Positions 1 through 2,191 of a stretch of DNA of 34,841 nt are shown piece by piece. A model generated the notes under the pieces. The model searched no databases and was not told where the DNA came from. It saw only the letters and a program-made list of their open reading frames with translations. Each line of letters begins with the position of its first letter. Within the stretch, counting starts at the first letter, position 1. The position numbers and the translations under genes are program-made. Where the stretch lies: the NCBI GenBank assembly GCA_016188005.1, contig JACPIQ010000114.1, forward strand, positions 1 through 34,841, read 5' to 3'. Source of the DNA: Candidatus Rokuibacteriota bacterium (GTDB lineage Bacteria; Methylomirabilota; Methylomirabilia; Rokubacteriales; CSP1-6).

Positions 1-33
1 CAGGAACAGGGCGAGCCACGTGAGACGTCTCAT
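1..33 (-). CDS. N-terminal fragment of an exported protein (runs off the left edge)
   Basis: Only the first 11 codons lie in the window. They read MRRLTWLALFL, a basic start followed by a hydrophobic stretch, which looks like the beginning of a signal peptide or membrane anchor. The ATG overlaps the stop codon of the preceding minus-strand gene in an ATGA junction, the same junction used by the two upstream gene pairs. It is therefore very probably the fourth gene of that operon. Nothing can be said about function. Confidence 0.6.
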   Translation of the reverse strand, partial: MRRLTWLALFL

Positions 34-647
34 GAGTCCCTCCTTGGGAGTGCTGACGAGGTGTTGATCAGGGTCGAGAGGAGCTGCGCGATCCGCCGGA
101 GCGGCTCGCGCAGCTTGTCGGCCTCGGACGCCGAGGTGGTCTTCACATAGCCCTCCGCCTCGTCGAAGGCGAGCCGGACGGCCGTCGAGCTCTTGTTGTC
201 CCGCGAGGAGACGGCGAAGTCCACGAGGTTGTAGTAGCGCCACATCGCCTCGAGGAAGCGCTGGCCCGTGGCCGCGCGCGCCTCACGCGAGAGCGTGCCG
301 CCGGCGAGCTGGCGATCGGCCTCGAGCGCCAGCTCGCGCGCGAGGGCGGCGAAGAAGATCATGAGGCGGCGCTCGACCTCCAGCCCGTCTTTGGACTGCA
401 GGGCGGCGCGGGTCCCGCTTTCCAGCCCGGCGGGCAGCGTCCCCGCCTTCTCACGCATGGCGGCCCTGAGCGCGCCCTCCTCGAAGAGGCGCAGCGCCAC
501 GTCGAACTTCCTGGCCTGCAGCGAGAACTTGATCTGCTTGAAATTGGTCGTGATCCCGTTGTCGCGCGGCGCGTAGGCGCCCACGTGGTGAGCGGAGGCG
601 GGGGACGCCAGGGTCAGGAGCAAGGCGAGGGCGGCGAGGGCGCTCAT
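30..647 (-). CDS. Exported helical protein of unknown function in the HxHAEG membrane operon
   Basis: A 205-residue protein that I do not recognise. It begins with a clear signal peptide (MSALAALALLLTLASPASA, cleavage expected after ASA), so the mature protein starts with HHVGAY and should be periplasmic. The rest is rich in Ala, Leu, Arg and Glu and looks all-helical. Striking stretches are RRLMIFFAALARELALEADRQL (about 111-132) and YYNLVDFAVSSRDNKSS (about 151-167). The ATG was chosen because it overlaps the upstream gene's stop (ATGA) and gives the signal peptide; the longer upstream reading frame is non-coding. The paired N-terminal histidines could bind metal, but that is only a guess. 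Confidence 0.75.
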   Translation of the reverse strand: MSALAALALLLTLASPASAHHVGAYAPRDNGITTNFKQIKFSLQARKFDVALRLFEEGALRAAMREKAGTLPAGLESGTRAALQSKDGLEVERRLMIFFAALARELALEADRQLAGGTLSREARAATGQRFLEAMWRYYNLVDFAVSSRDNKSSTAVRLAFDEAEGYVKTTSASEADKLREPLRRIAQLLSTLINTSSALPRRDS

Positions 648-1174
648 CGGCGGACGAGCCTGAGGGCGACGACACCGGCGAGCCACCAGAGCGCCACGAT
701 GGTGGCACCACCGAACGGGATCCAGACGACCCACTCCGCGATCGCCTTTCCTCTCTCCAGCCCGACGTACGGGATGAGTGCCGCCCACAACAGGTAGCCG
801 AGAGGGTAGCACGCTCCGCCCACCGTGAGAAGGCTGATAATCAGGGGCCGCGCCGGCGCCGTGCGCACGAGCGTGGCCGCCACCGTGCTGGTGGCGATGA
901 TGACCAGGCCCATGCCCTCCGCGTGCATGTGGAAGAGACGCAGGCCCGCGTCGAATTTCACGAGGGCCTCGTCGAGGATGCGCTCGTCGACGTCGCGCAC
1001 GCCCACCAGGCCGTGCACGGCGGGATGCGTGAGCATCGTGCCGCGCGCCCAGCGCGTGATCTCGATCTTGAAGCGCGACATCGACGCGCCGCCCACTTCG
1101 GCGCATACGATGAGCACGACGGCGACGAGCAGGACCCAGACAGGCGGCAGGCGCCACGTGGTCTCGGGGGTCAT
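644..1174 (-). CDS. Four-helix membrane protein with HMHAEGMGL motif (paralogue 2)
   Basis: A 176-residue predicted inner-membrane protein with about four transmembrane segments, around residues 12-30, 84-104, 110-132 and 147-172. It is clearly paralogous to the gene upstream. Both share a glutamate-containing first helix (E-x-GGA-x-MS), an HGL-x-G element in the loop, the motif F-H-x-HAEG-x-GL at the start of helix 2, a GG...P/Y-x-GYL segment in helix 3, and P-x-GGA in helix 4. The His and Glu residues inside or next to membrane helices suggest metal, haem or proton chemistry, but no family is recognised. The start overlaps the upstream stop (ATGA) and its own stop overlaps the next ATG. Confidence 0.8.
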   Translation of the reverse strand: MTPETTWRLPPVWVLLVAVVLIVCAEVGGASMSRFKIEITRWARGTMLTHPAVHGLVGVRDVDERILDEALVKFDAGLRLFHMHAEGMGLVIIATSTVAATLVRTAPARPLIISLLTVGGACYPLGYLLWAALIPYVGLERGKAIAEWVVWIPFGGATIVALWWLAGVVALRLVRR

Positions 1175-1719
1175 GGGCGCGGAGCCACGTCCGCTCGCGC
1201 CGGCGCCGCGTGACGGCTGCGCACGGCGAGGCACACGGCGAGAGCGATCAATCCGGCGATGGCGGCGCCGCCGAGCGGGGTGAGGACCCAGCGCTCGGCG
1301 AGCTCGATGCCGGCGTCACGGCCGAGTTCGAGCGCGCCCGCGCCGTAGACGAGGTAGCCGATCGGGAAGAGGCCGCCCGCGGTGAGAAGCACGTAGAGGG
1401 CCGCGCGCGCCCGGCGCCACGGCACCGCGCTCGCCACCAGCGTGCTCGTGAAGAAGAGGATGAGACCGAGGCCTTCCGCGTGGAGGTGGAAGAAGGACAG
1501 ACCGGTTTCGGCGCTGTACACCGCGCGGGCGCGCACCTCGTCGTCGTACTCCGCGGAGCCCGAGAGCCCGTGCGCCGGCGCGTTCGCGTTGACGCGCGCC
1601 GTGGCGTAGCGGGCGATCGAGGGCCGGAGCTGCGACATGGCGGCGCCGCCCGTCTCGCCGAGGGCCAGCACGAGGACGGCGATGAGGACGATGGCGAGTG
1701 GCGGACGTCTGAGCGCGAT
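1171..1719 (-). CDS. Four-helix membrane protein with HLHAEGLGL motif (paralogue 1), probable ATC start
   Basis: About 182 residues, first gene of the minus-strand operon and paralogue of the next gene (shared GE-x-GGA-x-MS, HGL-x-G, FFHLHAEGLGL, GG-LFPIGYL and P-x-GGA motifs). It has four predicted membrane helices and a charged, proline-rich C-terminus. The reading frame has no ATG, GTG or TTG at a sensible place: the nearest upstream candidates would lie before the promoter, and the first downstream ones fall inside or after helix 1. A strong Shine-Dalgarno (GGAGGG, 1726-1731) sits 6 nt before an ATC codon at 1719-1717, and I have used that as the start. This is unusual, and a sequencing error turning ATG into ATC is a simple alternative. 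Function unknown. Confidence 0.72.
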   Translation of the reverse strand: MALRRPPLAIVLIAVLVLALGETGGAAMSQLRPSIARYATARVNANAPAHGLSGSAEYDDEVRARAVYSAETGLSFFHLHAEGLGLILFFTSTLVASAVPWRRARAALYVLLTAGGLFPIGYLVYGAGALELGRDAGIELAERWVLTPLGGAAIAGLIALAVCLAVRSRHAAPARADVAPRP

Positions 1720-1749
1720 CGCGTTCCCTCCGGGGGCTGAAGTGGCGGG

Positions 1750-1778
1750 ATGGTAGCACCGCGCTGCCGATTTGTCAT
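1750..1778 (-). promoter_or_regulatory. Sigma-70-like promoter of the HxHAEG operon
   Basis: On the minus strand, -35 ATGACA (1773-1778, 5 of 6 to consensus) and -10 TACCAT (1750-1755, 4 of 6) are separated by exactly 17 nt. Transcription would start near 1743, giving a leader of about 24 nt that contains the GGAGGG at 1726-1731. On the plus strand the overlapping TTGTCA (1772-1777) with CAACAT (1795-1800), also 17 nt apart, is a weaker possible divergent promoter for the glycosidase remnant. Confidence 0.5.
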
Positions 1779-1831
1779 TACGCGCCGCCTGTGGCAACAT
1801 TGGCCGGCCGATGAGAAAGATGGGAGACCCC

Positions 1832-2191
1832 ATGACCGCAGACGCGTGGAGCGGGGCGATCGATCGCATGCTGGGCCGCATCCAGGACACGGCGGCCCGC
1901 GTGAAGGACGGCTTTCCCCACTGGGCCGATCCGGAGACGGGGCAGTGGACCACCACGCCCGAAGGCGACTGGACGGGCGGCTTCTGGATCGGCCAGCTGT
2001 GGCTGGCCGCCGCGGCGACGGGCGATGCGCGGTACCGGTCGTGGGCGGCGCCCTTCGCCGAGCGCCTGCGCGCGCGCATCGACGCGCAGACGGTGTTCAA
2101 AGCGAACCGCTGCGAGTTCATCGTGGGCAGCTACTACCTCTTCGAGAGCCTGCTCGGCCTCGCGGGCCGCATCGACCCCTTGCGCGTGTGA
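1832..2191 (+). pseudogene. Internally deleted glucuronyl-hydrolase-like (GH88-type) gene remnant
   Basis: A 119-residue product from ATG 1832, which has GGGAGA 5 nt upstream; ATG 1811 is an in-frame alternative. Residues 1-87 resemble the N-terminus of (alpha/alpha)6-barrel unsaturated glucuronyl hydrolases: the DWTGGFWIGQLWLAA block at about 46-60, followed by ATGD-x-RY. Residues 92-112 (NRCEFIVGSYYLFESLLGL) resemble the very end of the same family, where a G-S/D-YY-F/L-E-x-L segment is typical. Full-length members are about 350-400 residues, so roughly two-thirds of the barrel, including the catalytic region, is missing without a frameshift. Family assignment is from memory of motifs; a genuine small protein is possible but less likely. 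Confidence 0.5.

Follow-up and report, generated by a model that had tools for sequence, protein, structure and literature searches.

His-x-His membrane proteins and an exported partner with a predicted N-terminal histidine: a conserved operon of Rokubacteria that looks like a metal- or haem-handling module

The left end of contig JACPIQ010000114.1 from a Candidatus Rokuibacteriota genome (assembly GCA_016188005.1; G000:C114 in our set) raises a simple question: what do two small paralogous membrane proteins, each with a His-x-His-Ala-Glu-Gly motif, do together with an exported protein that is predicted to begin with histidine? The window referred to below is this complete contig of 34,841 nt; the membrane proteins are called A and B and the exported protein C. 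The A/B/C operon is real and conserved, is not filed in the libraries searched and shows an unusual pairing of proteins. In relatives it runs on into the genes of an ABC importer. Taken together, the small membrane proteins with the His-x-His (HxH) motif, the partner with the N-terminal histidine and the nutrient importer that usually goes with them have the look of a new surface machine for handling metal or haem; a metal or haem function of A, B and C is plausible but unproven. Our best explanation overall, which we put forward tentatively, is a periplasm-facing transition-metal module in which A and B would resemble styrene oxide isomerase (SOI), C would capture the metal and both would be coupled to the importer.

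Gene order and distribution of the operon

The following features were read at the left end of the window.

1171-1719, minus strand: gene A (P0001), four-helix membrane protein with HLHAEG; start codon uncertain
644-1174, minus strand: gene B (P0002), paralogue of A with HMHAEG; AlphaFold predicted local distance difference test (pLDDT) 96.6, nearest fold SOI
30-647, minus strand: gene C (P0003), exported, all-helical protein; signal peptide residues 1-19, predicted mature N-terminus HHVG
1-33, minus strand: gene D, first 11 codons only (MRRLTWLALFL); by synteny the start of a LIV-type ABC substrate-binding protein
1471-1488, minus strand: HxHAEG motif of A (HLHAEG)
914-931, minus strand: HxHAEG motif of B (HMHAEG, residues 82-87)
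585-590, minus strand: His20-His21 of C, predicted mature N-terminus after AxA cleavage
1171-1174, minus strand: ATGA overlap A/B
644-647, minus strand: ATGA overlap B/C
30-33, minus strand: ATGA overlap C/D
1726-1731, minus strand: Shine-Dalgarno sequence GGAGGG before gene A

A preliminary description of this DNA had counted at least four genes joined by ATGA overlaps, two of them coding for duplicated membrane proteins with a common motif. Both points stand, since the three overlaps are present and A and B are homologous. On their own, ATGA overlaps are commonplace in bacterial operons. Gene D is truncated because the window is a whole contig; its N-terminus resembles MKRLTWLALFL of the binding protein in a relative's locus (L026). 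No close D orthologue was found elsewhere in the same assembly, where the best of 36 matches to the presumed D orthologue of another genome has 37% identity, and the rest of the operon is therefore missing from this assembly. The 36 matches, LIV-type substrate-binding proteins, represent a large importer set for organic cargo in this genome.

Gene order was counted in 20 loci from 20 genomes (L026-L045); the loci L046-L077 come mostly from the same genomes and were not added. A/B and C are followed by the substrate-binding protein gene in 14 of the 20 loci (L026-L039), and in ten (L026-L035) the binding protein is followed by two permeases, two ATPases and a TlpA-like thioredoxin. By Pfam, a relative's binding protein is Peripla_BP_6 (259 bits) and the last gene of the relatives' operon is AhpC-TSA. 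The preliminary description had pointed to the gene past position 1: the window gives 11 residues of it, and in relatives a LIV-type binding protein stands in its place. The importer continuation, which lies off the contig, had been overlooked.

Two further loci (L043, L045) contain a divergent A'-C' pair, then two small exported proteins and then a related importer, and in L041/L069 and L042/L070 the stretch read shows an A'-C' pair and no importer gene. The small exported pairs lie at L043:4145-4788 and L045:10461-11128, that of L043 having no Pfam match above the cut-off; one small exported protein of the A'-C' operons has, by eye, a mature N-terminal His (AxA followed by HEERL), as has a relative in L077 by a signal-peptide rule. 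Upstream of many loci, in divergent orientation, lie genes for an HpaB-type flavoprotein, an enamidase-like amidohydrolase or molybdenum-hydroxylase-like proteins (the last recognised by eye), which hint at catabolism of organic cargo.

The operon is conserved across genomes. B-type proteins were detected in 43 of 95 genomes of the phylum (E<=0.001), all within one family-level group of 57 genomes and none in the remaining 38. C is present in 41 of the 95, and all 41 of these have A/B. The two genomes with A/B and no C are G040, in which the locus (L044) is apparently degraded, and G048, in which B lies about 500 bases from the contig end. A scan of GTDB contigs with a narrow motif pattern gave 155 pattern stretches, from which 32 relatives were obtained, all labelled Rokubacteria or Rokuibacteriota; viral contigs held no relative of B. 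The carriers form a cluster of soil and groundwater bacteria. In the open-licence literature searched on Rokubacteria importers, SOI relatives and N-terminal His proteins, A, B and C are undescribed.

Conserved residues of A and B

In 24 aligned A, B and A' proteins the residues H54, G58, D63, H82, H84, G87, G89, P124, G126, G138 and G155 (B numbering) are invariant, and an alignment of 53 sequences kept the same positions except G89. The two motif histidines, H82 and H84, are invariant in every aligned member, including those from outside the phylum; together with G87 they are found in 13 of 13 aligned sequences from Rokubacteria and a second phylum. The glutamate of the first helix, also reported as kept in the preliminary description, is shared by the A/B pair but is not invariant, being Ala in the divergent subfamily A'.

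None of A, B and C matched Pfam-A or NCBIfam at the curated cut-offs, in line with the earlier failure to recognise a family. A sequence search of the PDB gave nothing for B alone, and the A/B and C profiles found matches of E 0.028 or worse only. In each of three genomes (G081, G083, G084) a single open frame joins A and B to a second B-like domain; that of G081 takes in C too. Judged from the sequences, this three-domain A-B-B' fusion suggests a covalent trimer.

The exported protein C

The preliminary description had also noted an exported protein with a mature HH start, and C answers to it: its signal peptide ends in ASA, an AxA site, and HHVG follows. An AxA site directly followed by His is found in 29 of 29 aligned C proteins (19 of 19 in a smaller alignment), cleavage at this place being predicted, and position 2 or 4 holds another N-terminal His that is likewise invariant. 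A crude signal-peptide rule, which misses some C proteins and whose background may include membrane proteins, picked out 153 sequences from the loci read, and 15 of them have His at +1; of these, 14 belong to the C family and one, small and exported, is encoded in the A'-C' operons.

C and C' align over their full length as all-helical proteins, and the model of C (pLDDT 89.9) is all helix. None of its fold matches stands out among helical bundles: EfeO was found by Foldseek with probability 0.91 at E 0.31, and an imelysin reached Z 11.3 among many other helical bundles.

Homologues outside the phylum and neighbouring metal genes

A wider search of 388 genomes, overlapping the phylum set, found a homologue of the membrane proteins in G264 (E 3.3e-10), and in the phylum of G264 such homologues occur in 7 of 148 genomes. 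Seven loci (L106, L120-L125) were read from six of these seven genomes, G510 being left out. H-x-H-x-x-G is kept in all seven, and by hhalign the out-of-phylum set matches A/B (A3) with P 4.5e-12. Weak A3 matches in G011 and G381 were inspected and dropped as unlikely.

In three of the seven loci (L106, L120, L121) the operon also contains TolC-like, CusB-like and CusA-like genes, and the RND protein of L106 scores 1269 bits with the CusA/CzcA model. A YHS-domain protein is encoded in all three CusBA loci: as a P-type ATPase in L106 and L121, and as a separate protein, with no ATPase in the stretch, in L120. Directly upstream of the HxH gene in these loci (one gene away in L106) lies a gene for a Met/His-rich exported protein. 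The periplasmic loop before the motif is His-rich in six of the seven out-of-phylum proteins and contains Met in most; L124 is without such a loop. A Zip identity of the out-of-phylum protein was considered and rejected, the score of 21 bits against a cut-off of 35 being likely an artefact of the His-rich loop. In the stretches read, neither C nor a LIV importer was seen near the out-of-phylum HxH genes, and plasmids held no relative of the out-of-phylum protein.

In L125 a gene with a cytochrome-c-like CxxCH and a CYCXC protein are nearby. Within Rokubacteria, the surroundings of A'-C' in L069 include a multicopper oxidase, CopA-like (TIGR01480, 261 bits, below the cut-off), and genes that look like SCO/TlpA, and in L070 a CtaG-like gene (72 bits, below the cut-off). 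The co-occurrence with copper or cytochrome genes that the preliminary description had proposed to look for is found for distant homologues and some divergent copies but not for the main A-B-C loci. Its suggestion of a metal, haem or redox role fares similarly: indirect support comes from these neighbours, from the SOI-like fold described below and from the invariant predicted N-terminal His of C, while in the main Rokubacteria loci the TlpA-like thioredoxin is the sole possible metal or redox neighbour identified.

Two further gene types were seen near HxH genes. CYCXC-type exported proteins occur across phyla, at L125:8585-8977 (above the model cut-off), L069:9497-9838 (below it) and L123:1992-2417 (by eye). 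PEMT/ICMT-type membrane methyltransferase genes adjoin the HxH gene in L106 (2975-4991) and lie one gene off in L069 (6764-7564).

Fold of B and kinship to styrene oxide isomerase

In the AlphaFold2 model of B (mean pLDDT 96.6) the helices fit four that span the membrane, with a helical hairpin between the first and the second. Foldseek ranked SOI first with this model (probability 0.99, E 0.15). VIA-align gave SOI (PDB 8pnu) as the top match as well, with Z 11.7 and a root mean square deviation (rmsd) of 3.1 A over 133 aligned residues. Behind it came a stalk protein of a secretion system (Z 9.5) and MAPEG enzymes (Z about 9); Z values below about 13 may for helical bundles reflect a mere common arrangement. 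As described in the SOI paper, SOI is a trimer that holds haem b at the subunit interface through H58, open to the periplasm, and DALI gave its authors no substantial relative (PMC11374702).

The fold match gives rise to the main rival of the transition-metal module, namely that A and B hold haem b. They would form an SOI-type trimer with H82 on the proximal side of the haem and H84 of the neighbouring subunit on the distal side, acting as a haem enzyme or as a bis-His electron carrier that faces the periplasm, and the importer would take up the product. In a helix H82 and H84 point roughly opposite ways and could be proximal and distal residues in an SOI-like trimer; this is geometry and not evidence. 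The modelled fold favours such a haem protein, which on the whole we consider a serious but rather unlikely possibility.

By hhalign, A/B match five SOI sequences with P 0.005 and 0.026 in the two directions, and this weak alignment puts H82 on H58 and G89 on G65. The catalytic residues of SOI are not conserved, M88 standing in the place of N64 and L128, beside Y127, in that of Y103. The VIA alignment runs from B 7 on SOI 2 to B 172 on SOI 156, and given about 20 extra residues in loop 1 and eight fewer in loop 2 these ends of the modelled structure would be compatible with H82 on H58, as a consistency check and not a superposition. Reversed profiles scored about 12.5 compared with 22.6 for the real A/B-SOI comparison, but 4 of 150 block-shuffled profiles (columns shuffled within 10-column blocks) beat the real score. 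The subfamilies taken singly scored 22.4 (B), 16.2 (A) and 18.3 (A') to SOI, and eight control windows from two membrane families reached up to 16.2 to SOI. The NCBIfam model NF045734 (StyC) did not match A, B or A', while StyC itself scored 251.7 bits.

Searching the phylum with SOI gave matches at E<=1 in nine of its 95 genomes, and the strongest led to HAB-mutase-like proteins and not to A/B. These proteins match SOI by hhalign with P 0.0003, and from their sequences they may be haem proteins too. Their match to A/B is weak (P 0.003) and ambiguous in register, and this link is within reach of chance because the control windows reached 20.6 to HAB. When the whole A/B family was compared with SOI and HAB-like proteins together, it scored 27.0, the highest null value in 120 block permutations being 19.6. 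The out-of-phylum set alone matched SOI in another register (22.6, residues 10-40), and after it had been added to A/B the score dropped to 20.0 against SOI alone and 16.0 against HAB alone. Taken together, the sequence comparisons give weak to moderate backing to a kinship of A/B with SOI.

The HAB-mutase-like proteins have H-x5-N-G or H-x-N at the start of helix 2, as in SOI (L078-L082 versus L091-L095, L097, L098). One of their genes is found in the genome of the window itself (G000:C120:1502-1924, L093), as an open frame of 149 residues, though the search flagged one TGA in the matched stretch. The label HAB-mutase, and with it the function, is one that we presume for these small membrane proteins. 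A literature search on the name gave nothing useful. As context for the label, the HAB-mutase-like gene on pCNB neighbours a nitroreductase. A passage of one paper does no more than assign the chloronitrobenzene genes to pCNB1 (PMC6600141).

Possible roles of the A/B/C module

In the explanation that we tentatively prefer, the transition-metal module, A and B would be subunits of an inner-membrane complex with an SOI-like four-helix fold, probably a trimer of one A and two B. The invariant HxH, placed where the second membrane helix begins on the periplasmic side, would hold a transition-metal centre. C would be a helical bundle whose free N-terminal His captures the metal and which meets the A/B complex. 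Copper is the metal we favour, by analogy with the context of the distant relatives and with the type of chelate. The module would then work like the recently described anglerases, which join an N-terminal-His domain to a membrane permease, but with other folds. The complete LIV-type ABC importer and the TlpA-like thioredoxin, co-transcribed with the module, would act with it, and from this co-transcription the module probably serves the capture or the periplasmic processing of the importer's cargo.

Several observations weigh against this explanation. The fold kinship to SOI alone would predict haem. The aligned C proteins have no invariant internal His of the kind a classical brace needs, and the N-terminal segment of C, strongly conserved as it is, is modelled with low confidence; this would be expected if the segment folds on a partner or on metal. 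In L040/L071 and L044, A or A-B stands without an adjacent C, and no copper gene was recognised beside the main A-B-C loci in Rokubacteria. The metal-efflux context is itself not uniform: four of the seven out-of-phylum loci lie outside such operons, RND pumps of the CusA/CzcA kind export other metals too, and the ATPase of L121 scores above two cut-offs, the copper-translocating one (566 bits) and that of the cadmium family (407 bits).

We considered a further explanation that needs neither metal nor haem. A, B and C could be accessory subunits of the LIV importer, such as a platform on which the binding protein docks, with HxH in a structural role. The position of the binding-protein gene, directly after C in the 14 loci mentioned and behind the two small exported proteins in L043 and L045, would fit this. 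However, the A'-C' pairs of L041/L069 and L042/L070 lack an importer gene in the stretch read, HxH homologues without C sit in metal-efflux operons, and two strictly invariant histidines together with a His at the N-terminus after cleavage would be unusual for purely structural parts. We regard accessory subunits as unlikely, and as less likely than a haem protein.

A bolder proposal is that A, B and C are a new copper- or haem-dependent membrane enzyme facing the periplasm, with a heterotrimeric core of SOI fold and a His-x-His centre, loaded or gated by the helical N-terminal-His subunit. The enzyme would oxidise or rearrange a substrate, and its own ABC importer would take in the product; we hold this to be improbable. 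A new copper-dependent membrane oxygenase or oxidase, like particulate methane monooxygenase in outline (a membrane metal site and a periplasmic subunit with N-terminal His) but unrelated to it, its oxidised product being used by the importer and the divergent catabolic genes, would suit the N-terminal His of C, the HxH at the membrane face and the HpaB-type, amidohydrolase and molybdenum-hydroxylase-like neighbours, but A, B and C have no Pfam match to any oxygenase, C has no invariant second internal His and no electron donor gene was recognised; we consider it very improbable.

The case for a categorically new system is small but open. If the proposed module is real, the very few proteins that resemble SOI would be joined by a new family of small membrane proteins, whose distant members reach into at least one other phylum. 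C would then be a natural example of an N-terminal-His protein that is a helical bundle and has its membrane partner as a separate protein. The way in which uncultured Rokubacteria deal with metals or reactive compounds at their surface would come into view, and A, B and C would offer targets that can be purified and assayed for copper and haem.

The start of gene A

The preliminary description had let gene A start at 1719. The codon there is ATC, 6 nt past GGAGGG, and no ATG, GTG or TTG lies near the conserved N-terminus. ATC is found about 5-6 nt past GGAGGG in the window (1717-1731, minus strand) and in three other genomes, and CTG in three more (L026/L048, L027, L034/L062; L028, L029, L035); in other relatives the codon in this position or close to it is GTG or ATG. 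From the sequences, gene A seems to start without ATG, GTG or TTG. A divergent frame of 139 aa adjoins A at 1772-2191 (plus strand); by eye it is like the first part of a glycoside hydrolase and ends early.

Comparison with known systems

LIV-type ABC importers are represented in relatives by a complete gene set downstream of A/B/C; no description of an importer operon shared with A, B and C was found in the literature searched. MAPEG enzymes such as LTC4 synthase and mPGES-1 are trimeric. Like the B model they are four-helix membrane proteins (Z about 7-9), but the rmsd is mostly 4-6 and there is no Pfam match; what we take to be their glutathione-site residues were not seen in A/B. The HAB-mutase-like proteins resemble A/B in their size, that of a four-helix protein, and in an H-x-E-G motif where helix 2 starts, and they give a weak profile match. 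They differ in having one His only, and no exported partner is known for them.

For C, the nearest analogy is with proteins that carry an N-terminal His. According to a recent paper such proteins bind Cu or Ni and are attached to membrane permeases (PMC12537917). The anglerases Ang-1 and Ang-2 described there combine an exported N-terminal-His metal-binding part with a membrane protein, and C has its predicted His1 after the signal peptide. The Ang domains are, however, beta-sandwiches fused to HupE/UreJ, whereas C is all-helical, encoded by a separate gene and without a Pfam match. The classical copper histidine brace needs an N-terminal and an internal His; in C, H1 and a second N-terminal His are invariant, and no internal His is.

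For A and B, the out-of-phylum HxH proteins keep HxHxxG and have a Met/His-rich exported neighbour in the CusBA operons, but differ in the His/Met-rich loop 1 found in six of seven. SOI (StyC, PDB 8pnu) is likewise a small four-helix membrane protein and is a trimer, as the A-B-B' fusions suggest for A/B; its helix 2 starts with a His that the weak profile alignments put in register with that of A/B. The differences are that H-x5-N-G of SOI is replaced by HxHAEG in A/B, that the periplasmic loop 1 of A/B is about 20 residues longer and that A and B are a paralogous pair with an exported partner.

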